Shown here piece after piece: positions 23,870 through 58,240 of a stretch of DNA of 64,000 nucleotides. Origin of the DNA: Lucinisca nassula (taxonomy: Eukaryota > Mollusca > Bivalvia > Lucinida > Lucinidae). The notes under the pieces were generated by a model. It had not been told where the DNA came from. It saw nothing but the letters and a program-made list of their open reading frames with translations, and did not search any database. Every line of letters starts with the position of its first letter. Within the stretch, counting starts at the first letter, position 1. The translations under genes were made by a program, and so were the position numbers. The stretch lies in NCBI GenBank assembly GCA_963580285.1, contig OY757023.1, positions 130,356,027-130,420,026 on the forward strand, read 5' to 3'.

Positions 23870-23880
23870 TCACACAACGA

Positions 23881-25616: not shown

Positions 25617-25618
25617 AA

Positions 25619-29375: not shown

Positions 29376-29560
29376 GATAAAAGTGAAAATAGAAACTTAT
29401 TTTTAAGTCACAAATTTAAGCAAAACCAGCAAAAGTTTTCACCTCATCTCCATCAAATTACTATGTTTGCTGTATTGTAATCGTACTATCGTCAAACTGC
29501 TTCACGATATGCGTATCGTCAGCAGATATTGCAATATTTACCAAACAACTCAGTGAAAAC

Positions 29561-29621
29561 TCTGATTAATGATCAGCTTGATATGAGTGAAACAATCTTG
29601 AAAGGACTGTAAAACCAAACA
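29561..29621 (+). mobile_element. SINE 3' part (continuation of 26430)
   Basis: TCTGATTAATGATCAGCTTG through AAAGGACTGTAAAACC. Element E4 starts in its A-rich tail. Confidence 0.7.
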
Positions 29622-34404: not shown

Positions 34405-34489
34405 TCTGCTGACAGCCGGCTGGCACCAGACTTTTAGGTCTAGTGCCAGCCGGCTGTCACCAGACCTAAAAGTCTGCTGACAGCCAGCA
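34405..34489. repeat. Palindromic element P, copy 1
   Basis: AGACTTTTAGGTCT and AGACCTAAAAGTCT form a 14-bp stem around a spacer holding the palindrome AGCCGGCT. Outer TCTGCTGACAGCC blocks repeat. Copy 2 is at 58154-58240 in reverse complement, differing at about two to three bases. Confidence 0.8.
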
Positions 34490-34998
34490 ATAATATTTCT
34501 TCAATACTAACTACATTTTCATATTCTTATCTTCACCATATGTCTGGAATCTGGATCCAATTATAGAACTAGAAATGTATAAAGTTTGATTAAAATTCAT
34601 CAATTGGGCATGAGCTTGGGTGCAGAAAACCAATTTTTGGCTGAAAATCAAGTTTTCTGGAGCATATGACCTTAAAAGTTAGGACAAGGTCACCAGTCTA
34701 ATTAAATTTTTTGTTGCTGGTATATTGAAAAGTTGGACCACAATCCATTGATTTGTTCATGAGATAGGGTGCAGTCAAACCATTTTTTGTCCAAAGTTGA
34801 CAGTTTTTAGGGGCCTGTGCCTTTTAAAACCAAAATATGACTGATTTACCCCTCCTAGTGAACCATGTAAGATTGGTCCCAAATCCACAATCCATCCATA
34901 GGTTCAGTGCCTAAATCAGGATATGCCAAGCCACTGTCGCTGATGCAAACAGGATCTGCACCTAAAACAACATATCCTTCTCCCCTGTTATTTTTTTT
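34490..34998. other. No recognisable gene
   Basis: AT-rich sequence of low-complexity repeat character (TTGACAGTTTTTAGGGGCC, ATGAGATAGGGTGCAGTC). Confidence 0.4.
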
Positions 34999-36676: not shown

Positions 36677-36784
36677 ATTTGTTGGGGGACATAATTATGC
36701 TCATACTTGATAGTCATAACAAAGCATTGGTTCTACCTACACTGACATTATATTCTGGGATGTCTTAGAAGCTAGACTAATTAT
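36677..36784. other. Left flank of the zinc-finger array
   Basis: Unique-looking 108 bp between a SINE and the array edge. No feature seen. Confidence 0.4.
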
Positions 36785-38057
36785 GCATGGCTGAAATTTC
36801 CTGTCTCTATCCCTGAACAATAGTCCCGACCGGTCGGAGAGTGTGTAGCTGATAGATCCAGTACAATTCCTTGATTATTCGGGGTTTGTACTCCTATGGT
36901 CATCAGGGTCTGATGGTAAGATTTCAATAATTTGAAATATCATTTGTTCGAGGGCATGGTCAAGGAGGTTGAAATGGTTTGCCACCGGCGTATCCCGTTT
37001 TTCGGGTGTCGCGCTGGTGTTCCGTCATTCGAACCTTCTTGATAAGCCTCGATAGGATTCCTGTGGCTTTTTTATAGGCCGGTTGGATCTGTGCCGGTAA
37101 CTTTAGCGTCTTCCTTCTTAGACGGCTCCTCTTCCGAAGTGTTCTCCCTGGTCCTCTTCTTGGAACTCTTCTTTTTGGGAACAACCGTAATTCGCGACGA
37201 ACTGGCTGACGCAGACGTCAGGGTCAGATTGCTCAGGCTTGAGCTAACTGACATGTCGCTGTTGGTCTGTGTTGGACTTCTCCCATGGAACGCTGACCCG
37301 GCGCATCCGTCTCCGAGCGAAGAAGGGGTGCATTAAAGCTGGAGGTGTGTGGCTGACGACTCAGATTGGTCGCGCCATGGTCTTGCTCATTGTGACTCAT
37401 AGCGAATAATTCCTAACTAGTTTCTGCCTAATAGTAGGCTTTCATCAGAGGATGTGTGCGCTTGTCACAGATTTGTGACGAGCTGTGCGATTTTCGCTCT
37501 TTATATACCCTCTGGGTCACCCATGGTTACCCATAATTATGTATGTAGACCGGCCCTTTTGGGGCTGGTGGGCAATTTTTGCCTTTGTGAAGACTGTCAC
37601 CGGCCCTTTGGGGGCCGGTTGACGTTATTTCCATTTCGTTGTTATGGAGAGAACGTCGTCACCGGCCTGGGCACAAGACGTTCACCGGCCCCTATGGGGC
37701 CGGGCGACGTTTTCCTTTACTATTTTGGTTAGGATTGTGGCATTAGTTGGTCCGTTTGGGGCCGCTTTGTATTATCGGTAGCCTAAATACATGTATTTAT
37801 ATGTATCGTATGTATTTTATTGTCGGCACCGGTACCGATTTTTGGACAGTCTTTGAAAGGGAATACATTTTCGCTGTTTATTTACAGGCTTTGTGGGGTT
37901 ACTGAAGTGAGGCGCATTTGCAATTTATTGTTAATTTATGTTAATTGACGGGTGGGATGGGGGAGAGAATGTTAGTATAACATGTATAAGATGATTGTTT
38001 ACATGCAAAGGTATGAAATTGTTTATAATAAACGGTCAAAATAAAACTTATTTGTTT

Positions 38058-38402
38058 TCATTTACATACCTTTATTTCGAAGTTGGCCATTGTGAATAAA
38101 GCATTACTTAAGGAGAGTTCTGTATTGAATTTCTCTTCTAGGAAAGGTCCTAGAATTCTATCTAATTTTTCTATTGTGAAGTCCCGTGTGTTCGGGTCCT
38201 TGGCACTTCGACTTTCCCCTGTAATTCCTTCGTGTTTGTTACGAATATGCTCACACATAGAATCTTTTCTAGTGAATAATAGCCCACAATGCTGGCATAA
38301 GATACGGAGTCCTTTGTGTGCCGTTTCCAGGTGTCTCCGCAGGCTTTTTAGGTGTTTGTATGTCTTGTTACATTCCAAACATGGATGTATTTCCGTAGTT
38401 AG
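38058..38402 (-). CDS. Two-finger C2H2 zinc-finger ORF, unit L6
   Basis: Same product as in R1 (49508-49852) except SLSNALFTM in place of SLSDDLFTM near the C-terminus. Promoter, leader ORFs and splice donor are all present in this unit. Confidence 0.55.
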   Translation of the reverse strand, partial: LTTEIHPCLECNKTYKHLKSLRRHLETAHKGLRILCQHCGLLFTRKDSMCEHIRNKHEGITGESRSAKDPNTRDFTIEKLDRILGPFLEEKFNTELSLSNALFTMANFEIKVCK

Positions 38403-39863
38403 CTATTAGTGCGACAATTGTGCGACGTTATGACGTCCTCTTTATGCCAGTTTTGGGGCGTCTTTGCCCCGTAATTGCAAACGTATTTGAGCTAACTAAT
38501 AGGTTGCGTGTTCGGGATAGAGAGAGGAGTAAGGGGACATAAATGTGAAAGGTGCATGGCTGAAATTTCCTGTCTCTATCCCTGAACAATAGTCCCGACC
38601 GGTCGGAGAGTGTGTAGCTGATAGATCCAGTACAATTCCTTGATTATTCGGGGTTTGTACTCCTATGGTCATCAGGGTCTGATGGTAAGATTTCAATAAT
38701 TTGAAATATCATTTGTTCGAGGGCATGGTCAAGGAGGTTGAAATGGTTTGCCACCGGCGTATCCCGTTTTTCGGGTGTCGCGCTGGTGTTCCGTCATTCG
38801 AACCTTCTTGATAAGCCTCGATAGGATTCCTGTGGCTTCTTTATAGGCCGGTTGGATCTGTGCCGGTAACTTTAGCGTCTTCCTTCTTAGACGGCTCCTC
38901 TTCCGAAGTGTTCTCCCTGGTCCTCTTCTTGGAACTCTTCTTTTTGGGAACAACCGTAATTCGCGACGAACTGGCTGACGCAGACGTCAGGGTCAGATTG
39001 CTCAGGCTTGAGCTAACTGACATGTCGCTGTTGGTCTGTGTTGGACTTCTCCCATGGAACGCTGACCCGGCGCATCCGTCTCCGAGCGAAGAAGGGGTGC
39101 ATTAAAGCTGGAGGTGTGTGGCTGACGACTCAGATTGGTCGCGCCATGGTCTTGCTCATTGTGACTCATAGCGAATAATTCCTAACTAGTTTCTGCCTAA
39201 TAGTAGGCTTTCATCAGAGGATGTGTGCGCTTGTCACAGATTTGTGACGAGCTGTGCGATTTTCGCTCTTTATATACCCTCTGGGTCACCCATGGTTACC
39301 CATCATTATGTATGTAGACCGGCCCTTTTGGGGCTGGTGGGCAATTTTTGCCTTTGTGAAGACTGTCACCGGCCCTTTGGGGGCCGGTTGACGTTATTTC
39401 CATTTCGTTGTTATGGAGAGAACGTCGTCACCGGCCCCTGAGGGCCGGTGACGTCATAATCCATTGTTATTAATGGGCACAAGACGTTCACCGGCCCCTA
39501 TGGGGCCGGGCGACGTTTTCCTTTACTATTTTGGTTAGGATTGTGGCATTAGTTGGTCCGTTTGGGGCCGCTTTGTATTATCGGTAGCCTAAATACATGT
39601 ATTTATATGTATCGTATGTATTTTATTGTCGGCACCGGTACCGATTTTTGGACAGTCTTTGAAAGGGAATACATTTTCGCTGTTTATTTACAGGCTTTGT
39701 GGGGTTACTGAAGTGAGGCGCATTTGCAATTTATTGTTAATTTATGTTAATTGACGGGTGGGATGGGGGAGAGAATGTTAGTATAACATGTATAAGATGA
39801 TTGTTTACATGCAAAGGTATGAAATTGTTTATAATAAACGGTCAAAATGAAACTTATTTGTTT

Positions 39864-40208
39864 TCATTTACATACCTTTATTTCGAAGTTGGCCATTGTG
39901 AATAAATCATCACTTAAGGAGAGTTCTGTATTGAATTTCTCTTCTAGGAAAGGTCCTAGAATTCTATCTAATTTTTCTATTGTGAAGTCCCGTGTGTTCG
40001 GGTCCTTGGCACTTCGACTTTCCCCTGTAATTCCTTCGTGTTTGTTACGAATATGCTCACACATAGAATCTTTTCTAGTGAATAATAGCCCACAATGCTG
40101 GCATAAGATACGGAGTCCTTTGTGTGCCGTTTCCAGGTGTCTCCGCAGGCTTTTTAGGTGTTTGTATGTCTTGTTACATTCCAAACATGGATGTATTTCC
40201 GTAGTTAG
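39864..40208 (-). CDS. Two-finger C2H2 zinc-finger ORF, unit L5
   Basis: Protein identical to the R1 copy over the aligned length. Confidence 0.55.
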   Translation of the reverse strand, partial: LTTEIHPCLECNKTYKHLKSLRRHLETAHKGLRILCQHCGLLFTRKDSMCEHIRNKHEGITGESRSAKDPNTRDFTIEKLDRILGPFLEEKFNTELSLSDDLFTMANFEIKVCK

Positions 40209-41669
40209 CTATTAGTGCGACAATTGTGCGACGTTATGACGTCCTCTTTATGCCAGTTTTGGGGCGTCTTTGCCCCGTAATTGCAAACGTATTTGAGCTA
40301 ACTAATAGGTTGCGTGTTCGGGATAGAGAGAGGAGTAAGGGGACATAAATGTGAAAGGTGCATGGCTGAAATTTCCTGTCTCTATCCCTGAACAATAGTC
40401 CCGACCGGTCGGAGAGTGTGTAGCTGATAGATCCAGTACAATTCCTTGATTATTCGGGGTTTGTACTCCTATGGTCATCAGGGTCTGATGGTAAGATTTC
40501 AATAATTTGAAATATCATTTGTTCGAGGGCATGGTCAAGGAGGTTGAAATGGTTTGCCACCGGCGTATCCCGTTTTTCGGGTGTCGCGCTGGTGTTCCGT
40601 CATTCGAACCTTCTTGATAAGCCTCGATAGGATTCCTGTGGCTTCTTTATAGGCCGGTTGGATCTGTGCCGGTAACTTTAGCGTCTTCCTTCTTAGACGG
40701 CTCCTCTTCCGAAGTGTTCTCCCTGGTCCTCTTCTTGGAACTCTTCTTTTTGGGAACAACCGTAATTCGCGACGAACTGGCTGACGCAGACGTCAGGGTC
40801 AGATTGCTCAGGCTTGAGCTAACTGACATGTCGCTGTTGGTCTGTGTTGGACTTCTCCCATGGAACGCTGACCCGGCGCATCCGTCTCCGAGCGAAGAAG
40901 GGGTGCATTAAAGCTGGAGGTGTGTGGCTGACGACTCAGATTGGTCGCGCCATGGTCTTGCTCATTGTGACTCATAGCGAATAATTCCTAACTAGTTTCT
41001 GCCTAATAGTAGGCTTTCATCAGAGGATGTGTGCGCTTGTCACAGATTTGTGACGAGCTGTGCGATTTTCGCTCTTTATATACCCTCTGGGTCACCCATG
41101 GTTACCCATCATTATGTATGTAGACCGGCCCTTTTGGGGCTGGTGGGCAATTTTTGCCTTTGTGAAGACTGTCACCGGCCCTTTGGGGGCCGGTTGACGT
41201 TATTTCCATTTCGTTGTTATGGAGAGAACGTCGTCACCGGCCCCTGAGGGCCGGTGACGTCATAATCCATTGTTATTAATGGGCACAAGACGTTCACCGG
41301 CCCCTATGGGGCCGGGCGACGTTTTCCTTTACTATTTTGGTTAGGATTGTGGCATTAGTTGGTCCGTTTGGGGCCGCTTTGTATTATCGGTAGCCTAAAT
41401 ACATGTATTTATATGTATCGTATGTATTTTATTGTCGGCACCGGTACCGATTTTTGGACAGTCTTTGAAAGGGAATACATTTTCGCTGTTTATTTACAGG
41501 CTTTGTGGGGTTACTGAAGTGAGGCGCATTTGCAATTTATTGTTAATTTATGTTAATTGACGGGTGGGATGGGGGAGAGAATGTTAGTATAACATGTATA
41601 AGATGATTGTTTACATGCAAAGGTATGAAATTGTTTATAATAAACGGTCAAAATGAAACTTATTTGTTT

Positions 41670-42014
41670 TCATTTACATACCTTTATTTCGAAGTTGGCC
41701 ATTGTGAATAAATCATCACTTAAGGAGAGTTCTGTATTGAATTTCTCTTCTAGGAAAGGTCCTAGAATTCTATCTAATTTTTCTATTGTGAAGTCCCGTG
41801 TGTTCGGGTCCTTGGCACTTCGACTTTCCCCTGTAATTCCTTCGTGTTTGTTACGAATATGCTCACACATAGAATCTTTTCTAGTGAATAATAGCCCACA
41901 ATGCTGGCATAAGATACGGAGTCCTTTGTGTGCCGTTTCCAGGTGTCTCCGCAGGCTTTTTAGGTGTTTGTATGTCTTGTTACATTCCAAACATGGATGT
42001 ATTTCCGTAGTTAG
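41670..42014 (-). CDS. Two-finger C2H2 zinc-finger ORF, unit L4
   Basis: Protein identical to the R1 copy, although ORF B of the same unit is the most diverged in the array. Confidence 0.55.
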   Translation of the reverse strand, partial: LTTEIHPCLECNKTYKHLKSLRRHLETAHKGLRILCQHCGLLFTRKDSMCEHIRNKHEGITGESRSAKDPNTRDFTIEKLDRILGPFLEEKFNTELSLSDDLFTMANFEIKVCK

Positions 42015-43475
42015 CTATTAGTGCGACAATTGTGCGACGTTATGACGTCCTCTTTATGCCAGTTTTGGGGCGTCTTTGCCCCGTAATTGCAAACGTATTT
42101 GAGCTAACTAATAGGTTGCGTGTTCGGGATAGAGAGAGGAGTAAGGGGACATAAATGTGAAAGGTGCATGGCTGAAATTTCCTGTCTCTATCCCTGAACA
42201 ATAGTCCCGACCGGTCGGAGAGTGTGTAGCTGATAGATCCAGTACAATTCCTTGATTATTCGGGGTTTGTACTCCTATGGTCATCAGGGTCTGATGGTAA
42301 GATTTCAATAATTTGAAATATCATTTGTTCGAGGGCATGGTCAAGGAGGTTGAAATGGTTTGCCACCGGCGTATCCCGTTTTTCGGGTGTCGCGCTGGTG
42401 TTCCGTCATTCGAACCTTCTTGATAAGCCTCGATAGGATTCCTGTGGCTTCTTTATAGGCCGGTTGGATCTGTGCCGGTAACTTTAGCGTCTTCCTTCTT
42501 AGACGGCTCCTCTTCCGAAGTGTTCTCCCTGGTCCTCTTCTTGGAAATCTTCTTTTTGGGAACAACCTTATTTCGCGACGAACTGGCTGACGCAGACGTC
42601 AGGGTCAGATTGCTCAGGCTTGAACTAACTGACATGTCGCTGTTGGTCTGTGTTGGACTTCTCCCATGGAACGCTGACCCGGCGCATCCGTCTCCGAGCG
42701 AAGAAGGGGTGCATTAAAGCTGGAGGTGTGTGGCTGACGACTCAGATTGGTCGCGCCATGGTCTTGCTCATTGTGACTCATAACGAATAATTCCTAACTA
42801 GTTTCTGCCTAATAGTAGGCTTTCATCAGAGGATGTGTGCGCTTGTCACAGATTTGTGACGAGCTGTGCGATTTTCGCTCTTTATATACCCTCTGGGTCA
42901 CCCATGGTTACCCATCATTATGTATGTAGACCGGCCCTTTTGGGGCTGGTGGGCAATTTTTGCCTTTGTGAAGACTGTCACCGGCCCTTTGGGGGCCGGT
43001 TGACGTTATTTCCATTTCGTTGTTATGGAGAGAACGTCGTCACCGGCCCCTGAGGGCCGGTGACGTCATAATCCATTGTTATTAATGGGCACAAGACGTT
43101 CACCGGCCCCTATGGGGCCGGGCGACGTTTTCCTTTACTATTTTGGTTAGGATTGTGGCATTAGTTGGTCCGTTTGGGGCCGCTTTGTATTATCGGTAGC
43201 CTAAATACATGTATTTATATGTATCGTATGTATTTTATTGTCGGCACCGGTACCGATTTTTGGACAGTCTTTGAAAGGGAATACATTTTCGCTGTTTATT
43301 TACAGGCTTTGTGGGGTTACTGAAGTGAGGCGCATTTGCAATTTATTGTTAATTTATGTTAATTGACGGGTGGGATGGGGGAGAGAATGTTAGTATAACA
43401 TGTATAAGATGATTGTTTACATGCAAAGGTATGAAATTGTTTATAATAAACGGTCAAAATGAAACTTATTTGTTT

Positions 43476-43820
43476 TCATTTACATACCTTTATTTCGAAG
43501 TTGGCCATTGTGAATAAATCATTACTTAAGGAGAGTTCTGTATTGAATTTCTCTTCTAGGAAAGGTCCTAGAATTCTATCTAATTTTTCTATTGTGAAGT
43601 CCCGTGTGTTCGGGTCCTTGGCACTTCGACTTTCCCCTGTAATTCCTTCGTGTTTGTTACGAATATGCTCACACATAGAATCTTTTCTAGTGAATAATAG
43701 CCCACAATGCTGGCATAAGATACGGAGTCCTTTGTGTGCCGTTTCCAGGTGTCTCCGCAGGCTTTTTAGGTGTTTGTATGTCTTGTTACATTCCAAACAT
43801 GGATGTATTTCCGTAGTTAG
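43476..43820 (-). CDS. Two-finger C2H2 zinc-finger ORF, unit L3
   Basis: One replacement relative to R1 (SLSNDLFTM), outside the fingers. Confidence 0.55.
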   Translation of the reverse strand, partial: LTTEIHPCLECNKTYKHLKSLRRHLETAHKGLRILCQHCGLLFTRKDSMCEHIRNKHEGITGESRSAKDPNTRDFTIEKLDRILGPFLEEKFNTELSLSNDLFTMANFEIKVCK

Positions 43821-45281
43821 CTATTAGTGCGACAATTGTGCGACGTTATGACGTCCTCTTTATGCCAGTTTTGGGGCGTCTTTGCCCCGTAATTGCAAAC
43901 GTATTTGAGCTAACTAATAGGTTGCGTGTTCGGGATAGAGAGAGGAGTAAGGGGACATAAATGTGAAAGGTGCATGGCTGAAATTTCCTGTCTCTATCCC
44001 TGAACAATAGTCCCGACCGGTCGGAGAGTGTGTAGCTGATAGATCCAGTACAATTCCTTGATTATTCGGGGTTTGTACTCCTATGGTCATCAGGGTCTGA
44101 TGGTAAGATTTCAATAATTTGAAATATCATTTGTTCGAGGGCATGGTCAAGGAGGTTGAAATGGTTTGCCACCGGCGTATCCCGTTTTTCGGGTGTCGCG
44201 CTGGTGTTCCGTCATTCGAACCTTCTTGATAAGCCTCGATAGGATTCCTGTGGCTTCTTTATAGGCCGGTTGGATCTGTGCCGGTAACTTTAGCGTCTTC
44301 CTTCTTAGACGGCTCCTCTTCCGAAGTGTTCTCCCTGGTCCTCTTCTTGGAACTCTTCTTTTTGGGAACAACCGTAATTCGCGACGAACTGGCTGACGCA
44401 GACGTCAGGGTCAGATTGCTCAGGCTTGAGCTAACTGACATGTCGCTGTTGGTCTGTGTTGGACTTCTCCCATGGAACGCTGACCCGGCGCATCCGTCTC
44501 CGAGCGAAGAAGGGGTGCATTAAAGCTGGAGGTGTGTGGCTGACGACTCAGATTGGTCGCGCCATGGTCTTGCTCATTGTGACTCATAGCGAATAATTCC
44601 TAACTAGTTTCTGCCTAATAGTAGGCTTTCATCAGAGGATGTGTGCGCTTGTCACAGATTTGTGACGAGCTGTGCGATTTTCGCTCTTTATATACCCTCT
44701 GGGTCACCCATGGTTACCCATCATTATGTATGTAGACCGGCCCTTTTGGGGCTGGTGGGCAATTTTTGCCTTTGTGAAGACTGTCACCGGCCCTTTGGGG
44801 GCCGGTTGACGTTATTTCCATTTCGTTGTTATGGAGAGAACGTCGTCACCGGCCCCTGAGGGCCGGTGACGTCATAATCCATTGTTATTAATGGGCACAA
44901 GACGTTCACCGGCCCCTATGGGGCCGGGCGACGTTTTCCTTTACTATTTTGGTTAGGATTGTGGCATTAGTTGGTCCGTTTGGGGCCGCTTTGTATTATC
45001 GGTAGCCTAAATACATGTATTTATATGTATCGTATGTATTTTATTGTCGGCACCGGTACCGATTTTTGGACAGTCTTTGAAAGGGAATACATTTTCGCTG
45101 TTTATTTACAGGCTTTGTGGGGTTACTGAAGTGAGGCGCATTTGCAATTTATTGTTAATTTATGTTAATTGACGGGTGGGATGGGGGAGAGAATGTTAGT
45201 ATAACATGTATAAGATGATTGTTTACATGCAAAGGTATGAAATTGTTTATAATAAACGGTCAAAATGAAACTTATTTGTTT

Positions 45282-45626
45282 TCATTTACATACCTTTATT
45301 TCGAAGTTGGCCATTGTGAATAAATCATCACTTAAGGAGAGTTCTGTATTGAATTTCTCTTCTAGGAAAGGTCCTAGAATTCTATCTAATTTTTCTATTG
45401 TGAAGTCCCGTGTGTTCGGGTCCTTGGCACTTCGACTTTCCCCTGTAATTCCTTCGTGTTTGTTACGAATATGCTCACACATAGAATCTTTTCTAGTGAA
45501 TAATAGCCCACAATGCTGGCATAAGATACGGAGTCCTTTGTGTGCCGTTTCCAGGTGTCTCCGCATGCTTTTTAGGTGTTTGTATGTCTTGTTACATTCC
45601 AAACATGGATGTATTTCCGTAGTTAG
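45282..45626 (-). CDS. Two-finger C2H2 zinc-finger ORF, unit L2
   Basis: One replacement inside finger 1 (KSMRRHL where others have KSLRRHL), conservative at the hydrophobic core position. Confidence 0.55.
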   Translation of the reverse strand, partial: LTTEIHPCLECNKTYKHLKSMRRHLETAHKGLRILCQHCGLLFTRKDSMCEHIRNKHEGITGESRSAKDPNTRDFTIEKLDRILGPFLEEKFNTELSLSDDLFTMANFEIKVCK

Positions 45627-47087
45627 CTATTAGTGCGACAATTGTGCGACGTTATGACGTCCTCTTTATGCCAGTTTTGGGGCGTCTTTGTCCCGTAATT
45701 GCAAACGTATTTGAGCTAACTAATAGGTTGCGTGTTCGGGATAGAGAGAGGAGTAAGGGGACATAAATGTGAAAGGTGCATGGCTGAAATTTCCTGTCTC
45801 TATCCCTGAACAATAGTCCCGACCGGTCGGAGAGTGTGTAGCTGATAGATCCAGTACAATTCCTTGATTATTCGGGGTTTGTACTCCTATGGTCATCAGG
45901 GTCTGATGGTAAGATTTCAATAATTTGAAATATCATTTGTTCGAGGGCATGGTCAAGGAGGTTGAAATGGTTTGCCACCGGCGTATCCCGTTTTTCGGGT
46001 GTCGCGCTGGTGTTCCGTCATTCGAACCTTCTTGATAAGCCTCGATAGGATTCCTGTGGCTTCTTTATAGGCCGGTTGGATCTGTGCCGGTAACTTTAGC
46101 GTCTTCCTTCTTAGACGGCTCCTCTTCCGAAGTGTTCTCCCTGGTCCTCTTCTTGGAACTCTTCTTTTTGGGAACAACCGTAATTCGCGACGAACTGGCT
46201 GACGCAGACGTCAGGGTCAGATTGCTCAGGCTTGAGCTAACTGACATGTCGCTGTTGGTCTGTGTTGGACTTCTCCCATGGAACGCTGACCCGGCGCATC
46301 CGTCTCCGAGCGAAGAAGGGGTGCATTAAAGCTGGAGGTGTGTGGCTGACGACTCAGATTGGTCGCGCCATGGTCTTGCTCATTGTGACTCATAGCGAAT
46401 AATTCCTAACTAGTTTCTGCCTAATAGTAGGCTTTCATCAGAGGATGTGTGCGCTTGTCACAGATTTGTGACGAGCTGTGCGATTTTCGCTCTTTATATA
46501 CCCTCTGGGTCACCCATGGTTACCCATCATTATGTATGTAGACCGGCCCTTTTGGGGCTGGTGGGCAATTTTTGCCTTTGTGAAGACTGTCACCGGCCCT
46601 TTGGGGGCCGGTTGACGTTATTTCCATTTCGTTGTTATGGAGAGAACGTCGTCACCGGCCCCTGAGGGCCGGTGACGTCATAATCCATTGTTATTAATGG
46701 GCACAAGACGTTCACCGGCCCCTATGGGGCCGGGCGACGTTTTCCTTTACTATTTTGGTTAGGATTGTGGCATTAGTTGGTCCGTTTGGGGCCGCTTTGT
46801 ATTATCGGTAGCCTAAATACATGTATTTATATGTATCGTATGTATTTTATTGTCGGCACCGGTACCGATTTTTGGACAGTCTTTGAAAGGGAATACATTT
46901 TCGCTGTTTATTTACAGGCTTTGTGGGGTTACTGAAGTGAGGCGCATTTGCAATTTATTGTTAATTTATGTTAATTGACGGGTGGGATGGGGGAGAGAAT
47001 GTTAGTATAACATGTATAAGATGATTGTTTACATGCAAAGGTATGAAATTGTTTATAATAAACGGTCAAAATGAAACTTATTTGTTT

Positions 47088-47432
47088 TCATTTACATACC
47101 TTTATTTCGAAGTTGGCCATTGTGAATAAATCATCACTTAAGGAGAGTTCTGTATTGAATTTCTCTTCTAGGAAAGGTCCTAGAATTCTATCTAATTTTT
47201 CTATTGTGAAGTCCCGTGTGTTCGGGTCCTTGGCACTTCGACTTTCCCCTGTAATTCCTTCGTGTTTGTTACGAATATGCTCACACATAGAATCTTTTCT
47301 AGTGAATAATAGCCCACAATGCTGGCATAAGATACGGAGTCCTTTGTGTGCCGTTTCCAGGTGTCTCCGCAGGCTTTTTAGGTGTTTGTATGTCTTGTTA
47401 CATTCCAAACATGGATGTATTTCCGTAGTTAG
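47088..47432 (-). CDS. Two-finger C2H2 zinc-finger ORF, unit L1 (promoterless unit)
   Basis: Protein identical to R1. This unit lost its own TATA box and ORF A start at the inversion junction, so expression would need transcription entering from the centre. Confidence 0.5.
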   Translation of the reverse strand, partial: LTTEIHPCLECNKTYKHLKSLRRHLETAHKGLRILCQHCGLLFTRKDSMCEHIRNKHEGITGESRSAKDPNTRDFTIEKLDRILGPFLEEKFNTELSLSDDLFTMANFEIKVCK

Positions 47433-48082
47433 CTATTAGTGCGACAATTGTGCGACGTTATGACGTCCTCTTTATGCCAGTTTTGGGGCGTCTTTGCCCC
47501 GTAATTGCAAACGTATTTGAGCTAACTAATAGGTTGCGTGTTCGGGATAGAGAGAGGAGTAAGGGGACATAAATGTGAAAGGTGCATGGCTGAAATTTCC
47601 TGTCTCTATCCCTGAACAATAGTCCCGACCGGTCGGAGAGTGTGTAGCTGATAGATCCAGTACAATTCCTTGATTATTCGGGGTTTGTACTCCTATGGTC
47701 ATCAGGGTCTGATGGTAAGATTTCAATAATTTGAAATATCATTTGTTCGAGGGCATGGTCAAGGAGGTTGAAATGGTTTGCCACCGGCGTATCCCGTTTT
47801 TCGGGTGTCGCGCTGGTGTTCCGTCATTCGAACCTTCTTGATAAGCCTCGACAGGATTCCTGTGGCTTCTTTATAGGCCGGTTGGATCTGTGCCGGTAAC
47901 TTTAGCGTCTTCCTTCTTAGACGGCTCCTCTTCCGAAGTGTTCTCCCTGGTCCTCTTCTTGGAACTCTTCTTTTTGGGAACAACCGTAATTCGCGACGAA
48001 CTGGCTGACGCAGACGTCAGGGTCAGATTGCTCAGGCTTGAGCTAACTGACATGTCGCTGTTGGTCTGTGTTGGACTTCTCC

Positions 48083-48084
48083 CA
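48083..48084. other. Inversion junction of the array
   Basis: ACTTCTCCC of the left arm is joined to AATTTCATACC of the right arm. The normal contexts are CTTCTCCCATGG and AAACAATTTCAT, so a two-base CA is shared at the breakpoint. The join is between different positions of the unit, not a simple mirror. Confidence 0.85.
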
Positions 48085-48400
48085 ATTTCATACCTTTGCA
48101 TGTAAACAATCATCTTATACATGTTATACTAACATTCTCTCCCCCATCCCACCCGTCAATTAACATAAATTAACAATAAATTGCAAATGCGCCTCACTTC
48201 AGTAACCCCACAAAGCCTGTAAATAAACAGCGAAAATGTATTCCCTTTCAAAGACTGTCCAAAAATCGGTACCGGTGCCGACAATAAAATACATACGATA
48301 CATATAAATACATGTATTTAGGCTACCGATAATACAAAGCGGCCCCAAACGGACCAACTAATGCCACAATCCTAACCAAAATAGTAAAGGAAAACGTCGC

Positions 48401-48592
48401 CCGGCCCCATAGGGGCCGGTGAACGTCTTGTGCCCATTAATAACAATGGATTATGACGTCACCGGCCCTCAGGGGCCGGTGACGACGTTCTCTCCATAAC
48501 AACGAAATGGAAATAACGTCAACCGGCCCCCAAAGGGCCGGTGACAGTCTTCACAAAGGCAAAAATTGCCCACCAGCCCCAAAAGGGCCGGT
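48401..48592 (+). promoter_or_regulatory. Upstream hairpin cluster of unit R1
   Basis: Four GC-rich inverted repeats in 192 bp: 48401-48419 (CCGGCCCC ATA GGGGCCGG), 48458-48483 (GTCACCGGCCC TCAG GGGCCGGTGAC, 11 perfect pairs), 48522-48542 (ACCGGCCC ... GGGCCGGT) and 48572-48592 (one mismatch). Spacing is about 50-64 bp. They sit just upstream of the TATA box in every unit; L7 lacks the second, and R5 has a mismatch in it (GGGACCGG). Confidence 0.85.
48454..48461 (+). promoter_or_regulatory. CRE-like site in unit promoter
   Basis: TGACGTCA, the palindromic CREB/ATF consensus, overlapping the foot of the 11-bp hairpin. Present in each complete unit and lost from L7 by its 37-bp deletion. Binding is not shown by sequence alone. 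Confidence 0.55.
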
Positions 48593-48633
48593 CTACATAC
48601 ATAATGATGGGTAACCATGGGTGACCCAGAGGG

Positions 48634-48640
48634 TATATAA
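48634..48640 (+). promoter_or_regulatory. TATA box of unit R1 (eleven in the array)
   Basis: TATATAA in GAGGGTATATAAAGAGCG. Other copies: plus 50440, 52246, 54041, 55847; minus (low coordinate) 37501, 39270, 41076, 42882, 44688, 46494. A hairpin GTCACA AATC TGTGAC follows ~25 bases downstream near the expected start of transcription, and the first ATG is at +107 from the TATA box. Confidence 0.75.
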
Positions 48641-48692
48641 AGAGCGAAAATCGCACAGCTCGTCACAAATCTGTGACAAGCGCACACATCCT

Positions 48693-48722
48693 CTGATGAA
48701 AGCCTACTATTAGGCAGAAACT
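48693..48722 (+). other. 5' leader hairpin (CTGATGA ... GAAAC)
   Basis: CTCTGATGAAAGCC TACTATTA GGCAGAAAC: stem GCCTA/TAGGC flanked by CTGATGA and GAAAC. The word order recalls the hammerhead core found in Penelope-like elements, but the closing pair of helix II is missing. Conserved in all units with a promoter. Confidence 0.5.
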
Positions 48723-48740
48723 AGTTAGGAATTATTCGCT

Positions 48741-48908
48741 ATGAGTCACAATGAGCAAGACCATGGCGCGACCAATCTGAGTCGTCAGCCACACACCTCC
48801 AGCTTTAATGCACCCCTTCTTCGCTCGGAGACGGATGCGCCGGGTCAGCGTTCCATGGGAGAAGTCCAACACAGACCAACAGCGACATGTCAGTTAGCTC
48901 AAGCCTGA
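48741..48908 (+). CDS. Leader ORF A of unit R1 (55 aa), unknown
   Basis: First ATG downstream of the TATA box; product begins MSHNEQDHGATNLSRQPH and ends at TGA. Rich in polar residues, no recognised domain. It overlaps the start of ORF B in another frame. Equivalent starts: plus 50547, 52353, 54148, 55954; minus (high coordinate) 46393, 44587, 42781, 40975, 39169, 37400. Whether it is translated alone, spliced or frameshifted into ORF B is unknown. In R5 the frame runs into flanking DNA (55954-56160). Confidence 0.4.
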   Translation: MSHNEQDHGATNLSRQPHTSSFNAPLLRSETDAPGQRSMGEVQHRPTATCQLAQA

Positions 48909-49069
48909 GCAATCTGACCCTGACGTCTGCGTCAGCCAGTTCGTCGCGAATTACGGTTGTTCCCAAAAAGAAGAGTTCCAAGAAGAGGACCAGGGAGAAC
49001 ACTTCGGAAGAGGAGCCGTCTAAGAAGGAAGACGCTAAAGTTACCGGCACAGATCCAACCGGCCTATAA
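48887..49069 (+). CDS. ORF B of unit R1 (60 aa), serine/lysine-rich, NLS-like
   Basis: Product begins MSVSSSLSNLTLTSASASSS, then a basic segment VVPKKKSSKKRTREN that looks like a nuclear localisation signal, then an acidic/basic mix SEEEPSKKEDAK. No domain known to me. Copies: plus 50693-50875, 52499-52681, 54294-54476; minus 37072-37254, 38841-39023, 40647-40829, 42453-42635, 44259-44441, 46065-46247, 47871-48053. L4 has three replacements in the basic segment. In L1 the frame extends upstream across the inversion junction to 48122. A nuclear protein linked to the zinc-finger ORF of the same unit is plausible but unproven. Confidence 0.4.
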   Translation: MSVSSSLSNLTLTSASASSSRITVVPKKKSSKKRTRENTSEEEPSKKEDAKVTGTDPTGL

Positions 49070-49116
49070 AGAAGCCACAGGAATCCTATCGAGGCTTATC
49101 AAGAAGGTTCGAATGA

Positions 49117-49266
49117 CGGAACACCAGCGCGACACCCGAAAAACGGGATACGCCGGTGGCAAACCATTTCAACCTCCTTGACCATGCCCTCGAACAAATG
49201 ATATTTCAAATTATTGAAATCTTACCATCAGACCCTGATGACCATAGGAGTACAAACCCCGAATAA
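49117..49266 (+). other. Open segment between ORF B and the zinc-finger ORF
   Basis: Frame with protein-like composition (VANHFNLLDHALEQMIF, then ILPSDPDDHRS) and no upstream ATG, bounded by TGA at 49114 and TAA at 49264. A second overlapping frame (49214-49414, 66 codons, non-ATG start) is also open. Both recur in every unit. They may be exon pieces or decayed coding sequence. The segment also holds the 12-bp palindrome CCGACCGGTCGG (near 49304). Confidence 0.3.
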
Positions 49267-49507
49267 TCAAGGAATTGTACTGGATCTATCAGCTACACAC
49301 TCTCCGACCGGTCGGGACTATTGTTCAGGGATAGAGACAGGAAATTTCAGCCATGCACCTTTCACATTTATGTCCCCTTACTCCTCTCTCTATCCCGAAC
49401 ACGCAACCTATTAGTTAGCTCAAATACGTTTGCAATTACGGGGCAAAGACGCCCCAAAACTGGCATAAAGAGGACGTCATAACGTCGCACAATTGTCGCA
49501 CTAATAG

Positions 49508-49852
49508 CTAACTACGGAAATACATCCATGTTTGGAATGTAACAAGACATACAAACACCTAAAAAGCCTGCGGAGACACCTGGAAACGGCACACAAAGGA
49601 CTCCGTATCTTATGCCAGCATTGTGGGCTATTATTCACTAGAAAAGATTCTATGTGTGAGCATATTCGTAACAAACACGAAGGAATTACAGGGGAAAGTC
49701 GAAGTGCCAAGGACCCGAACACACGGGACTTCACAATAGAAAAATTAGATAGAATTCTAGGACCTTTCCTAGAAGAGAAATTCAATACAGAACTCTCCTT
49801 AAGTGATGATTTATTCACAATGGCCAACTTCGAAATAAAGGTATGTAAATGA
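49508..49852 (+). CDS. Two-finger C2H2 zinc-finger ORF, unit R1 (reference copy)
   Basis: Open from just after TAATAG (49502-49507) to TGA at 49850. It encodes two classical fingers: C-x2-C-x12-H-x4-H in HPCLECNKTYKHLKSLRRHL (ending ETAH), and the same spacing in ILCQHCGLLFTRKDSMCEHI (ending RNKH). A ~50-residue tail contains FTIEKLDRILGPFLEEKF. There is no ATG before finger 1 (the first in-frame ATG is inside finger 2), so a complete protein needs an upstream exon. AAG|GTATGT at 49838-49846 is a consensus splice donor in phase 0. From the candidate acceptor (AG at 49506-49507) to this donor is 333 nt, exactly 111 codons. Two-finger C2H2 modules usually bind nucleic acid. The family was not recognised; a host gene fragment or the N-terminal part of a mobile-element protein are both possible. 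Confidence 0.6.
   Translation, partial: LTTEIHPCLECNKTYKHLKSLRRHLETAHKGLRILCQHCGLLFTRKDSMCEHIRNKHEGITGESRSAKDPNTRDFTIEKLDRILGPFLEEKFNTELSLSDDLFTMANFEIKVCK
49841..49846 (+). promoter_or_regulatory. Consensus splice donor at the end of the zinc-finger exon
   Basis: AAG|GTATGT, recurring at the same place in all ten zinc-finger copies. In-frame read-through gives only VCK before the stop. Confidence 0.6.
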
Positions 49853-49975
49853 AAACAAATAAGTTTCATTTTGACCGTTTATTATAAACAATTTCATACC
49901 TTTGCATGTAAACAATCATCTTATACATGTTATACTAACATTCTCTCCCCCATCCCACCCGTCAATTAACATAAA

Positions 49976-50094
49976 TTAACAATAAATTGCAAATGCGCCT
50001 CACTTCAGTAACCCCACAAAGCCTGTAAATAAACAGCGAAAATGTATTCCCTTTCAAAGACTGTCCAAAAATCGGTACCGGTGCCGACAATAAA
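49976..50094 (+). terminator. Candidate polyadenylation signals after unit R1
   Basis: AACAATAAATTGC (about 49979) and GACAATAAAATAC (about 50087) follow the zinc-finger stop by 130-240 nt, before the next unit's hairpins and TATA box. A transcript of ~1.4 kb per unit would result if they are used. Confidence 0.45.
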
Positions 50095-51313
50095 ATACAT
50101 ACGATACATATAAATACATGTATTTAGGCTACCGATAATACAAAGCGGCCCCAAACGGACCAACTAATGCCACAATCCTAACCAAAATAGTAAAGGAAAA
50201 CGTCGCCCGGCCCCATAGGGGCCGGTGAACGTCTTGTGCCCATTAATAACAATGGATTATGACGTCACCGGCCCTCAGGGGCCGGTGACGACGTTCTCTC
50301 CATAACAACGAAATGGAAATAACGTCAACCGGCCCCCAAAGGGCCGGTGACAGTCTTCACAAAGGCAAAAATTGCCCACCAGCCCCAAAAGGGCCGGTCT
50401 ACATACATAATGATGGGTAACCATGGGTGACCCAGAGGGTATATAAAGAGCGAAAATCGCACAGCTCGTCACAAATCTGTGACAAGCGCACACATCCTCT
50501 GATGAAAGCCTACTATTAGGCAGAAACTAGTTAGGAATTATTCGCTATGAGTCACAATGAGCAAGACCATGGCGCGACCAATCTGAGTCGTCAGCCACAC
50601 ACCTCCAGCTTTAATGCACCCCTTCTTCGCTCGGAGACGGATGCGCCGGGTCAGCGTTCCATGGGAGAAGTCCAACACAGACCAACAGCGACATGTCAGT
50701 TAGCTCAAGCCTGAGCAATCTGACCCTGACGTCTGCGTCAGCCAGTTCGTCGCGAATTACGGTTGTTCCCAAAAAGAAGAGTTCCAAGAAGAGGACCAGG
50801 GAGAACACTTCGGAAGAGGAGCCGTCTAAGAAGGAAGACGCTAAAGTTACCGGCACAGATCCAACCGGCCTATAAAGAAGCCACAGGAATCCTATCGAGG
50901 CTTATCAAGAAGGTTCGAATGACGGAACACCAGCGCGACACCCGAAAAACGGGATACGCCGGTGGCAAACCATTTCAACCTCCTTGACCATGCCCTCGAA
51001 CAAATGATATTTCAAATTATTGAAATCTTACCATCAGACCCTGATGACCATAGGAGTACAAACCCCGAATAATCAAGGAATTGTACTGGATCTATCAGCT
51101 ACACACTCTCCGACCGGTCGGGACTATTGTTCAGGGATAGAGACAGGAAATTTCAGCCATGCACCTTTCACATTTATGTCCCCTTACTCCTCTCTCTATC
51201 CCGAACACGCAACCTATTAGTTAGCTCAAATACGTTTGCAATTACGGGGCAAAGACGCCCCAAAACTGGCATAAAGAGGACGTCATAACGTCGCACAATT
51301 GTCGCACTAATAG

Positions 51314-51658
51314 CTAACTACGGAAATACATCCATGTTTGGAATGTAACAAGACATACAAACACCTAAAAAGCCTGCGGAGACACCTGGAAACGGCACAC
51401 AAAGGACTCCGTATCTTATGCCAGCATTGTGGGCTATTATTCACTAGAAAAGATTCTATGTGTGAGCATATTCGTAACAAACACGAAGGAATTACAGGGG
51501 AAAGTCGAAGTGCCAAGGACCCGAACACACGGGACTTCACAATAGAAAAATTAGATAGAATTCTAGGACCTTTCCTAGAAGAGAAATTCAATACAGAACT
51601 CTCCTTAAGTGATGATTTATTCACAATGGCCAACTTCGAAATAAAGGTATGTAAATGA
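51314..51658 (+). CDS. Two-finger C2H2 zinc-finger ORF, unit R2
   Basis: Protein identical to R1; donor at 51647. Confidence 0.55.
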   Translation, partial: LTTEIHPCLECNKTYKHLKSLRRHLETAHKGLRILCQHCGLLFTRKDSMCEHIRNKHEGITGESRSAKDPNTRDFTIEKLDRILGPFLEEKFNTELSLSDDLFTMANFEIKVCK

Positions 51659-53119
51659 AAACAAATAAGTTTCATTTTGACCGTTTATTATAAACAATTT
51701 CATACCTTTGCATGTAAACAATCATCTTATACATGTTATACTAACATTCTCTCCCCCATCCCACCCGTCAATTAACATAAATTAACAATAAATTGCAAAT
51801 GCGCCTCACTTCAGTAACCCCACAAAGCCTGTAAATAAACAGCGAAAATGTATTCCCTTTCAAAGACTGTCCAAAAATCGGTACCGGTGCCGACAATAAA
51901 ATACATACGATACATATAAATACATGTATTTAGGCTACCGATAATACAAAGCGGCCCCAAACGGACCAACTAATGCCACAATCCTAACCAAAATAGTAAA
52001 GGAAAACGTCGCCCGGCCCCATAGGGGCCGGTGAACGTCTTGTGCCCATTAATAACAATGGATTATGACGTCACCGGCCCTCAGGGGCCGGTGACGACGT
52101 TCTCTCCATAACAACGAAATGGAAATAACGTCAACCGGCCCCCAAAGGGCCGGTGACAGTCTTCACAAAGGCAAAAATTGCCCACCAGCCCCAAAAGGGC
52201 CGGTCTACATACATAATGATGGGTAACCATGGGTGACCCAGAGGGTATATAAAGAGCGAAAATCGCACAGCTCGTCACAAATCTGTGACAAGCGCACACA
52301 TCCTCTGATGAAAGCCTACTATTAGGCAGAAACTAGTTAGGAATTATTCGCTATGAGTCACAATGAGCAAGACCATGGCGCGACCAATCTGAGTCGTCAG
52401 CCACACACCTCCAGCTTTAATGCACCCCTTCTTCGCTCGGAGACGGATGCGCCGGGTCAGCGTTCCATGGGAGAAGTCCAACACAGACCAACAGCGACAT
52501 GTCAGTTAGCTCAAGCCTGAGCAATCTGACCCTGACGTCTGCCTCAGCCAGTTCGTCGCGAATTACGGTTGTTCCCAAAAAGAAGAGTTCCAAGAAGAGG
52601 ACCAGGGAGAACACTTCGGAAGAGGAGCCGTCTAAGAAGGAAGACGCTAAAGTTACCGGCACAGATCCAACCGGCCTATAAAGAAGCCACAGGAATCCTA
52701 TCGAGGCTTATCAAGAAGGTTCGAATGACGGAACACCAGCGCGACACCCGAAAAACGGGATACGCCGGTGGCAAACCATTTCAACCTCCTTGACCATGCC
52801 CTCGAACAAATGATATTTCAAATTATTGAAATCTTACCATCAGACCCTGATGACCATAGGAGTACAAACCCCGAATAATCAAGGAATTGTACTGGATCTA
52901 TCAGCTACACACTCTCCGACCGGTCGGGACTATTGTTCAGGGATAGAGACAGGAAATTTCAGCCATGCACCTTTCACATTTATGTCCCCTTACTCCTCTC
53001 TCTATCCCGAACACGCAACCTATTAGTTAGCTCAAATACGTTTGCAATTACGGGGCAAAGACGCCCCAAAACTGGCATAAAGAGGACGTCATAACGTCGC
53101 ACAATTGTCGCACTAATAG

Positions 53120-53464
53120 CTAACTACGGAAATACATCCATGTTTGGAATGTAACAAGACATACAAACACCTAAAAAGCCTGCGGAGACACCTGGAAACG
53201 GCACACAAAGGACTCCGTATCTTATGCCAGCATTGTGGGCTATTATTCACTAGAAAAGATTCTATGTGTGAGCATATTCGTAACAAACACGAAGGAATTA
53301 CAGGGGAAAGTCGAAGTGCCAAGGACCCGAACACACGGGACTTCACAATAGAAAAATTAGATAGAATTCTAGGACCTTTCCTAGAAGAGAAATTCAATAC
53401 AGAACTCTCCTTAAGTGATGATTTATTCACAATGGCCAACTTCGAAATAAAGGTATGTAAATGA
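53120..53464 (+). CDS. Two-finger C2H2 zinc-finger ORF, unit R3
   Basis: Protein identical to R1; donor at 53453. This unit carries a G-to-C change in ORF B DNA near 52543. Confidence 0.55.
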   Translation, partial: LTTEIHPCLECNKTYKHLKSLRRHLETAHKGLRILCQHCGLLFTRKDSMCEHIRNKHEGITGESRSAKDPNTRDFTIEKLDRILGPFLEEKFNTELSLSDDLFTMANFEIKVCK

Positions 53465-54914
53465 AAACAAATAAGTTTCATTTTGACCGTTTATTATAAA
53501 CAATTTCATACCTTTGCATGTAAACAATCATCTTATACATGTTATACTAACATTCTCTCCCCCATCCCACCCGTCAATTAACATAAATTAACAATAAATT
53601 GCAAATGCGCCTCACTTCAGTAACCCCACAAAGCCTGTAAATAAACAGCGAAAATGTATTCCCTTTCAAAGACTGTCCAAAAATCGGTACCGGTGCCGAC
53701 AATAAAATACATACGATACATATAAATACATGTATTTAGGCTACCGATAATACAAAGCGGCCCCAAACGGACCAACTAATGCCACAATCCTAACCAAAAT
53801 AGTAAAGGAAAACGTCGCCCGGCCCCATAGGGGCCGGTGAACGTCTTGTGCCCATTAATAACAATGGATTATGACGTCACCGGCCCTCAGGGGCCGGTGA
53901 CGATAACAACGAAATGGAAATAACGTCAACCGGCCCCCAAAGGGCCGGTGACAGTCTTCACAAAGGCAAAAATTGCCCACCAGCCCCAAAAGGGCCGGTC
54001 TACATACATAATGATGGGTAACCATGGGTGACCCAGAGGGTATATAAAGAGCGAAAATCGCACAGCTCGTCACAAATCTGTGACAAGCGCACACATCCTC
54101 TGATGAAAGCCTACTATTAGGCAGAAACTAGTTAGGAATTATTCGCTATGAGTCACAATGAGCAAGACCATGGCGCGACCAATCTGAGTCGTCAGCCACA
54201 CACCTCCAGCTTTAATGCACCCCTTCTTCGCTCGGAGACGGATGCGCCGGGTCAGCGTTCCATGGGAGAAGTCCAACACAGACCAACAGCGACATGTCAG
54301 TTAGCTCAAGCCTGAGCAATCTGATCCTGACGTCTGCGTCAGCCAGTTCGTCGCGAATTACGGTTGTTCCCAAAAAGAAGAGTTCCAAGAAGAGGACCAG
54401 GGAGAACACTTCGGAAGAGGAGCCGTCTAAGAAGGAAGACGCTAAAGTTACCGGCACAGATCCAACCGGCCTATAAAGAAGCCACAGGAATCCTATCGAG
54501 GCTTATCAAGAAGGTTCGAATGACGGAACACCAGCGCGACACCCGAAAAACGGGATACGCCGGTGGCAAACCATTTCAACCTCCTTGACCATGCCCTCGA
54601 ACAAATGATATTTCAAATTATTGAAATCTTACCATCAGACCCTGATGACCATAGGAGTACAAACCCCGAATAATCAAGGAATTGTACTGGATCTATCAGC
54701 TACACACTCTCCGACCGGTCGGGACTATTGTTCAGGGATAGAGACAGGAAATTTCAGCCATGCACCTTTCACATTTATGTCCCCTTACTCCTCTCTCTTT
54801 CCCGAACACGCAACCTATTAGTTAGCTCAAATACGTTTGCAATTACGGGGCAAAGACGCCCCAAAACTGGCATAAAGAGGACGTCATAACGTCGCACAAT
54901 TGTCGCACTAATAG

Positions 54915-55259
54915 CTAACTACGGAAATACATCCATGTTTGGAATGTAACAAGACATACAAACACCTAAAAAGCCTGCGGAGACACCTGGAAACGGCACA
55001 CAAAGGACTCCGTATCTTATGCCAGCATTGTGGGCTATTATTCACTAGAAAAGATTCTATGTGTGAGCATATTCGTAACAAACACGAAGGAATTACAGGG
55101 GAAAGTCGAAGTGCCAAGGACCCGAACACACGGGACTTCACAATAGAAAAATTAGATAGAATTCTAGGACCTTTCCTAGAAGAGAAATTCAATACAGAAC
55201 TCTCCTTAAGTGATGATTTATTCACAATGGCCAACTTCGAAATAAAGGTATGTAAATGA
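54915..55259 (+). CDS. Two-finger C2H2 zinc-finger ORF, unit R4
   Basis: Protein identical to R1; donor at 55248. The unit promoter has an 11-bp deletion beside the second hairpin (near 53903). Confidence 0.55.
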   Translation, partial: LTTEIHPCLECNKTYKHLKSLRRHLETAHKGLRILCQHCGLLFTRKDSMCEHIRNKHEGITGESRSAKDPNTRDFTIEKLDRILGPFLEEKFNTELSLSDDLFTMANFEIKVCK

Positions 55260-56039
55260 AAACAAATAAGTTTCATTTTGACCGTTTATTATAAACAATT
55301 TCATACCTTTGCATGTAAACAATCATCTTATACATGTTATACTAACATTCTCTCCCCCATCCCACCCGTCAATTAACATAAATTAACAATAAATTGCAAA
55401 TGCGCCTCACTTCAGTAACCCCACAAAGCCTGTAAATAAACAGCGAAAATGTATTCCCTTTCAAAGACTGTCCAAAAATCGGTACCGGTGCCGACAATAA
55501 AATACATACGATACATATAAATACATGTATTTAGGCTACCGATAATACAAAGCGGCCCCAAACGGACCAACTAATGCCACAATCCTAACCAAAATAGTAA
55601 AGGAAAACGTCGCCCGGCCCCATAGGGGCCGGTGAACGTCTTGTGCCCATTAATAACAATGGATTATGACGTCACCGGCCCTCAGGGACCGGTGACGACG
55701 TTCTCTCCATAACAACGAAATGGAAATAACGTCAACCGGCCCCCAAAGGGCCGGTGACAGTCTTCACAAAGGCAAAAATTGCCCACCAGCCCCAAAAGGG
55801 CCGGTCTACATACATAATGATGGGTAACCATGGGTGACCCAGAGGGTATATAAAGAGCGAAAATCGCACAGCTCGTCACAAATCTGTGACAAGCGCACAC
55901 ATCCTCTGATGAAAGCCTACTATTAGGCAGAAACTAGTTAGGAATTATTCGCTATGAGTCACAATGAGCAAGACCATGGCGCGACCAATCTGAGTCGTCA
56001 GCCACACACCTCCAGCTTTAACATTTTGGTTAAAGTTTT

Positions 56040-57665: not shown

Positions 57666-58153
57666 CGATCATAGTTATTTTTATAAAGTTTAATCAGCTA
57701 TACACCCCACCACCACACAAACACCTATGCCAATAACCTCACAGACACTATTCCAGGCGAGATATGCTGTCTGATGACAACTGTTGTTACATGACTTTTT
57801 TGGAGTGAGGTGAGCCCCTAGATGGGGGCATCTGTGTCGTATTGACACATTTCTAGTTCTGTCCGTGCTGTTCAAACCCAGATGAAGCGTGTGCCCACCA
57901 CTCTTCTCAAGTTTGTACATGTAAGTTCTGCTGATGGTATGCCTAGAAATAACCTTATGATAAATTTATGATTTAGAACTAAGCTGCAATAATACCAGCA
58001 TTGTTACACAAAGTTTGAACAAAAATACAAGTCCCCATTAGAAATTATTGCATCCTTCACTGTTCAACAAAGTTCTGTAAGCGGTATGGTAGCTCATGAA
58101 ACAGGATAAGTTATATAGTTAAAAAGAATATGCTTATTATTGAGTAAATATTA
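57666..58153. other. No gene; dispersed repeat at 57765-57860
   Basis: The ATCTGTGTCGTATTGACACA block is an inverted relative of 8099-8212. Nothing else recognised. Confidence 0.45.
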
Positions 58154-58240
58154 TAGCCGGCTGTCAGCAGACTTTTAGGTCTGGTGACAGCCGGCTGTCA
58201 CTAGACCTAAAAGTCTGGTGCCAGCCGGCTGTCAGCAGAC
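58154..58240. repeat. Palindromic element P, copy 2
   Basis: Three AGCCGGCT palindromes separated by AGACTTTTAGGTCT and AGACCTAAAAGTCT. Near-identical reverse complement of 34405-34489. Confidence 0.8.

Follow-up and report, generated by a model that had tools for sequence, protein, structure and literature searches.

How is a tandem array of gene-sized units born, and from what template? An array that is small, almost unmutated and still in possession of an intact inverted junction would let this birth be read directly, because the template, the copying route and the entry of the block into the chromosome would all be readable from it. We examined such a case in the bivalve Lucinisca nassula (GenBank assembly GCA_963580285.1, contig OY757023.1, positions 130,356,027 to 130,420,026), in a stretch of 64,000 bases with zero N, hereafter the window, which carries a 19-kb block of repeated 1.8-kb zinc-finger units. 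In our reading, to which we give a probability of about 0.5, this block is a young concatemer of the unit, probably derived from a circle and integrated as one block.

A k-mer self-comparison of the window revealed a block at about 36.8 to 56.0 kb that repeats on both strands. A sequence-only reading of the same DNA had described it as twelve full or partial copies of an 1806-bp unit, set in two outward-reading arms around an asymmetric junction at 48083/48084. This layout was reproduced when the 1806 bases that start at 48083 were aligned to the window, with nine full and three partial copies, of which seven lie on the minus strand in the left arm (36784-48084) and five on the plus strand in the right arm (48083-56021). 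The right edge was the same in both, and the left edge moved by one base, from 36785 to 36784. With unit position 1 set at the junction point, the copies are as follows.

36784..38021, minus strand: copy L1, the leftmost of all, a partial copy covering unit positions 1-1275, placed by alignment
38022..47051, minus strand: L2-L6, five full units, head to tail and reading leftward, 99.7-100% identical to R1
38022-39827, 39828-41633, 41634-43439 (L4), 43440-45245 and 45246-47051, minus strand: the full left-arm units, from the self-comparison
47052..48084, minus strand: copy L7, partial (unit positions 774-1806), without the promoter-like region, adjoining the inverted junction
48083..48084, unstranded: inverted head-to-head junction, where unit position 774 (minus) meets position 1 (plus) with a 2-bp overlap
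48083..55295, plus strand: R1-R4, four full units reading rightward, R4 with an 11-bp deletion
48083-49888 (R1), 49889-51694, 51695-53500 and 53501-55295, plus strand: the full right-arm units, from the self-comparison
55296..56021, plus strand: copy R5, the rightmost of all, a partial copy covering unit positions 1-726

The alignment and an inverted-repeat search showed this one junction. The longest inverted arms span 5821 nt with 100% complementarity; around the junction itself, inverted arms of 5048 nt are separated by 771 nt, and the left arm is 773 bp short of a symmetric palindrome. Outside the array, the window held no further copy of the unit, diverged or single, up to E=1, except for a 23-bp match at 61.1 kb that is at chance level (E 0.34).

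The copies differ very little. Over 1806 columns, the alignment of all 12 contained 17 substitution sites and two deletions, one of 37 bp (private to L1) and one of 11 bp (in R4), both within the palindrome region of the unit. The identity of the remaining full copies to R1 was 99.28-100%, where the lowest figure includes the 11-bp deletion. All but one of the substitution sites (16/17) were private to a single copy, and no variant was mirrored about the junction. In simulated 12-copy trees, which take all 12 copies as full length, a share of at least 16/17 private sites arose with a probability of 0.006 (pure-birth) or 0.0005 (coalescent); when a cluster of sites in L4 was counted once, at least 13/14 private sites arose with a probability of 0.014 or 0.0016, respectively. 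Since private sites dominate to a degree seldom reached in these trees, the copies appear to have arisen within a short span of time, unless this pattern is mimicked by conversion or by errors in the consensus.

The CpG content points in a similar direction. Windows of 1806 bases wholly inside the array gave observed/expected ratios of 0.90-0.95, whereas the 45 half-overlapping windows outside it averaged 0.48 (s.d. 0.17, maximum 0.98). Because the ratio is high inside and lower in most outside windows, the array seems to have escaped the loss of CpG that affected most of the surrounding DNA, a pattern consistent with a recent arrival or with a long-standing absence of methylation. The description of the cluster as young was thus supported, with so few substitution sites in 19.2 kb, nearly all of them private, and no CpG depletion.

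We then considered where the unit is cut. At the two array ends the break falls at unit positions 1275 and 726, and at the junction at 774/1, so that 726 and 774 lie just 48 bp apart. The left end opens with TGCATGG. No target-site duplication of at least 5 bp was found, the 40-bp flanks of the array having no direct word of that length in common. Published systems offer parallels. In a transgene concatemer resolved with PacBio reads, most inverted junctions carried asymmetric deletions (PMC8701086); integrated transgene and extrachromosomal concatemers of this kind resemble the present array in their head-to-tail copies and in an inverted junction with asymmetric loss, whereas here the DNA is natural and a circular form is presumed. 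The insertion of rolling-circle concatemers into the genome is a stated route of satellite birth, and such concatemers were proposed as a source of satellite arrays made from transposable elements, for example Helitron-linked loci in the oyster Crassostrea gigas (PMC12628747).

Given the varied cut points, the lack of a duplication of at least 5 bp, the asymmetric junction and these parallels, we favour a burst of copying from a circle, head-to-head joining and one insertion by end joining. A short burst would have produced the copies, the simplest template being an extrachromosomal circle, by rolling circle or by recombination between circles. End joining would then have united two concatemer pieces in head-to-head orientation, one side being trimmed, and the whole block would have been ligated into a chromosome break. 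The parent may have been a small gene unit of no assigned class, either mobile-like or captured, with a zinc-finger protein that other organisms have conserved. The sequence-only reading had put forward three origins, namely a young selfish or conflict-related cluster, a multi-copy family that is expressed, and an amplified mobile element; the last is favoured here by the varied ends, the missing duplication and the one junction with its 2-bp overlap, which do not prove it.

The protein frame of the unit is the part for which relatives could be found.

49508..49852, plus strand: two-finger C2H2 frame of R1, 114 codons stop to stop, open in 10 copies

The array is a coding macrosatellite in the sense that its kilobase-scale units stand in tandem and bear a protein frame each: the zinc-finger frame is kept in 9/9 full copies and in the partial L7, and the partial copies L1 and R5 end before it. 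Among the six unit frames compared with Pfam, this frame was the only one with matches. The two C2H2 fingers named earlier were recovered as PF00096 in 2 stretches (E 7.3e-7; 29.7 bits, where the cut-off is 25.2), the sole family of the 17 listed to pass the Pfam cut-off. Matches among PDB sequences were generic C2H2 proteins (best E 1.2e-10). In PHROGs, with which four unit frames were compared, five families matched the zinc-finger frame, two of them zinc-finger families and the best being phrog_6283 (annotated as unknown function, E 6.1e-8), and we took these as generic finger matches.

Relatives were sought in 5,772,631,384 proteins by shared words, with a limit on length. The search with the single sequence returned 3 candidates and one match, P0001, which is 75% identical over 102 residues and lies on a 1400-bp contig. 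A profile built from the zinc-finger frame and P0001 drew 244 candidates and three matches: P0001 again, P0002 (70% identical, on 10 contigs, the longest of 2530 bp) and, more distantly, P0003 (36% identical, E 1.7e-3). Because the tail beyond the fingers is also conserved in P0001 and P0002, we take the frame to represent a protein family and not a chance frame, and a family with two close relatives provides a handle for tracing the parent element. Phage records contained no relative, and relatives were confirmed neither in bacterial and archaeal contigs nor in viral contigs, collections that may cover animal viruses thinly. These searches, which turned up no viral or phage relative and no replication or capsid gene, did not place the unit among viruses or virus satellites. 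An AlphaFold2 model of the frame from a 3-row alignment had a mean pLDDT (predicted local distance difference test) of 49.9, which is too low for use.

How the frame would be entered is less straightforward. It has no in-frame ATG ahead of finger 1, so a coding sequence running from ATG to stop in one frame was not found. Every copy that reaches the codon has ATA where both P0001 and P0002 have Met, the start codons of these two relatives being predictions, and a stop codon stands just upstream of this ATA in the window. Because ATA replaces the Met of the relatives and is preceded by a stop, the frame may be entered by splicing from an upstream exon or at a non-ATG codon, or it may no longer yield a whole protein. 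The three substitution sites within the frame all change a residue (3/3), a number too small to judge selection.

The rest of the unit, given for copy R1, was read mainly from motifs.

48401..48591, plus strand: three GC-rich palindromes, at 48401-48419 (arms 9), 48455-48486 (arms 14) and 48522-48542 (arms 9), and a further GGCCGG half-site at 48586-48591; possible regulator sites, by motif reading
48634..48640, plus strand: TATA box (TATATAA), motif only
48689..48730, plus strand: leader stretch whose letters resemble a hammerhead ribozyme (UCCU, CUGAUGA, stem II, GAAAC, the palindrome ACUAGU, AGGA), not a recognised ribozyme
48741..48908, plus strand: leader open reading frame A, 55 amino acids, no family in Pfam or PHROGs
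48887..49069, plus strand: leader open reading frame B, 60 amino acids, Ser/Lys/Glu-rich, no family or relative in Pfam, PHROGs or viral contigs
49117..49266, plus strand: frame of 49 codons, with a weak match to PHROG 1066 only
49834..49846, plus strand: AATAAA (49834-49839) and donor-like GTATGT (49841-49846), motifs only, close to where the zinc-finger frame ends

The promoter claimed for each full unit held up as a set of motifs, namely the TATA box and the GC-rich palindromes upstream of it, and not as anything beyond motifs. The half-sites in 48401-48591 follow one another at 50-62 bp. Over the whole unit there are 2 palindromes with arms of at least 10, compared with a mean of 0.2 and a maximum of 1 in 30 mononucleotide shuffles; one belongs to the GC-rich group and the other lies in the leader (48658-48681). 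The CCGGCC/GGCCGG palindromes are near-regularly spaced in the units, and it is in their region that both short deletions of the array fall. Seven microRNA or small-RNA matches obtained from Rfam up to E=1, inside 48356-48628 and hence in the GC-rich palindromes, were all below gathering scores and were rejected; at the gathering score, the whole window gave zero Rfam matches.

In the hammerhead-like stretch the core letters are present together with a 5-bp stem II and possibly a 4-bp stem I, and the palindromic ACUAGU stands where stem III would be. The minimum-energy fold computed for it draws part of CUGAUGA into base pairs and does not form a hammerhead, and in 2017 bases around one unit no Rfam hammerhead covariance model matched up to E=1. 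The frame at 49117-49266 bears a tentative likeness to the closing part of a GIY-YIG domain of the Penelope type, which the searches did not confirm. Its match to PHROG 1066 (annotated as unknown function) was weak (E=0.0062), and relatives were absent from Pfam and PDB sequences; 18 stretches in viral contigs were not confirmed, and 39 candidates in the protein collection gave no match up to E=1. Beyond the donor-like GTATGT, the next unit offers, by motif reading, a possible acceptor TTCAG (unit 116-120) followed by AATAAA (unit 140). Splicing into this acceptor would place a stop codon directly past the joint.

Beyond the array, two similar blocks may be relevant to its origin.

34404..34517, plus strand: left-hand block, built of tandem 28-bp palindromes, of what may be a terminal inverted repeat, uncertain to belong with the array
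58127..58240, minus strand: right-hand block of this putative terminal inverted repeat, matching the left block at 94% identity over 107 bp

These candidate terminal repeats flank the array and are not at its ends, sitting near-symmetrically 2266 and 2105 bp away, and their match ends at the outer base of both. The only other matches to them in the window were within the two blocks themselves, plus one of 14 bp.

Several points weigh against a circle-derived concatemer. The circular form and the end joining are inferred, not observed, and copies this uniform could equally come from rapid duplication in place or from gene conversion. In the six unit frames compared with Pfam, neither a replicase nor a transposase or integrase was seen. 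Part of the private variants could be consensus errors of the assembly. A variant at unit position 1723 is common to L2 and L5, and L4 carries five private sites, four of them inside 78 bp; both may reflect later exchange or a second source. Two of the 45 windows outside the array reach a CpG ratio of at least 0.93. The test at the array ends covered target-site duplications of 5 bp and longer, and microhomology at the two outer ends can be judged only with an empty site. Taken on its own, the L4 patch looks as though a diverged sequence had served as its template or as though the sites had mutated together.

The main rival, which we consider possible and more doubtful than the concatemer, is local fold-back duplication with conversion, in which a resident unit was duplicated by unequal exchange, a fold-back or breakage-fusion event produced the inverted junction, and gene conversion homogenised the copies. 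Fold-back duplications can leave inverted, offset arms, as in the pair seen here with its 771-nt spacer, and the L2/L5 variant and the L4 patch suggest exchange between copies. Yet the window has no single-copy or diverged unit outside the array, save the short chance-level match, the variants are mostly private, and the unit is interrupted at a different position at each array end. It is unlikely, in our view, that the unit is the genome of a small circular plasmid-like or virus-satellite-like animal DNA element integrated as a concatemer; such an element would combine a two-finger C2H2 regulator with its own palindromic control region and would borrow enzymes for its multiplication. Quite unlikely is a 23.8-kb element bounded by the flanking blocks, with the array as its cargo, an arrangement that would be compatible with a concatemer origin. 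The inverted, highly similar blocks, the abrupt stop of their match at the outer base, their near-absence elsewhere in the window and their similar distances from the array speak for it. Against it, no target-site duplication was seen by eye in the 40 bp outside either block, no frame of at least 110 codons, and so no transposase frame of that size, lies between the blocks and the array, and the blocks are made of palindromes, which match in either orientation.

We give little credence to a non-autonomous Penelope-related retroelement multiplied through multimeric or circular RNA in the manner of hammerhead retrozymes. Metazoan retrozymes and Penelope-like elements do share with the array their tandem units and hammerhead-like leader letters with possible stems, the GIY-like frame has its weak PHROG 1066 match, and the window holds, at 22370-23869, a frame with a tentative likeness to a Penelope-like reverse transcriptase. 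The fold and the Rfam search did not bear out a hammerhead, however, the GIY-like frame is without a relative, no reverse transcriptase matched among the six unit frames, a target-site duplication of at least 5 bp is absent, and the unit has a protein frame. Moreover, retrozyme RNAs measure about 170-400 nt (PMC7229834), against 1806 here, a unit about 4.5-10.6 times longer. Very improbable is a host multi-copy gene cluster or conflict gene, amplified as more zinc-finger product was favoured, although ten open frames are kept, the non-finger tail is conserved in P0001 and P0002, and the promoter-like region is repeated. The absence of an in-frame ATG where the relatives have Met argues mildly against it, as do the residue changes at every in-frame substitution site, few as these are. 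An assembly or library artefact has almost negligible probability. Palindromes can stem from hairpin reads, and near-identical repeats are hard to assemble, but the two arms differ in length, outer flanks and private variants. As none of these variants is mirrored between the arms, a hairpin-read artefact was rejected.

Returning to the favoured concatemer, we compared the array with known classes. A simple satellite, known or otherwise, is unlikely because the unit carries a protein frame conserved elsewhere. Helitron-type ends read CTRR; the right end here reads CTTTAA and is not of that type, the conserved protein frame differs as well, and a Helitron was rejected. A long terminal repeat (LTR) element was rejected from the anatomy, since within the unit 1.2 kb separate the TATA box from AATAAA, which do not share one repeat. 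KolobokP, described as a bivalve-rich transposon showing tandem arrays (PMC9587614), was set aside because no transposase matched in the unit frames tested. D4Z4/DUX4 macrosatellites are alike in having tandem kilobase-scale units, each with a frame for a DNA-binding protein, and no homology is claimed; they carry homeodomains instead of C2H2 fingers, and D4Z4 units are reported to measure 3.3 kb and to number from 8 to over 100 (PMC13138017), against 12 copies in inverted arms here. Among the matches listed in a literature search of titles and abstract starts, with few subscription journals, there was no account of such an array.

The surroundings of the array contain other repeats and frames, and the repeats would fit a mollusc, probably a bivalve. 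On the minus strand, a 499-codon open frame at 22370-23869 had no Pfam match up to E 0.01 and a CpG observed/expected ratio of 0.86, which is high for the window; it presumably resembles a Penelope-like reverse transcriptase. Another minus-strand frame, of 1266 codons at 11651-15451, has SCAN, integrase and weak zinc-knuckle matches and a CpG observed/expected ratio of 0.29. It is probably an older LTR-type retroelement, in which no reverse transcriptase domain was matched. ARAGORN predicted two tRNA-Thr (GGT) genes outside the array in opposite orientation, at 9410-9486 (plus) and 16856-16932 (minus). Several diverged arrays of an approximately 166-bp repeat occupy 20073-33500.

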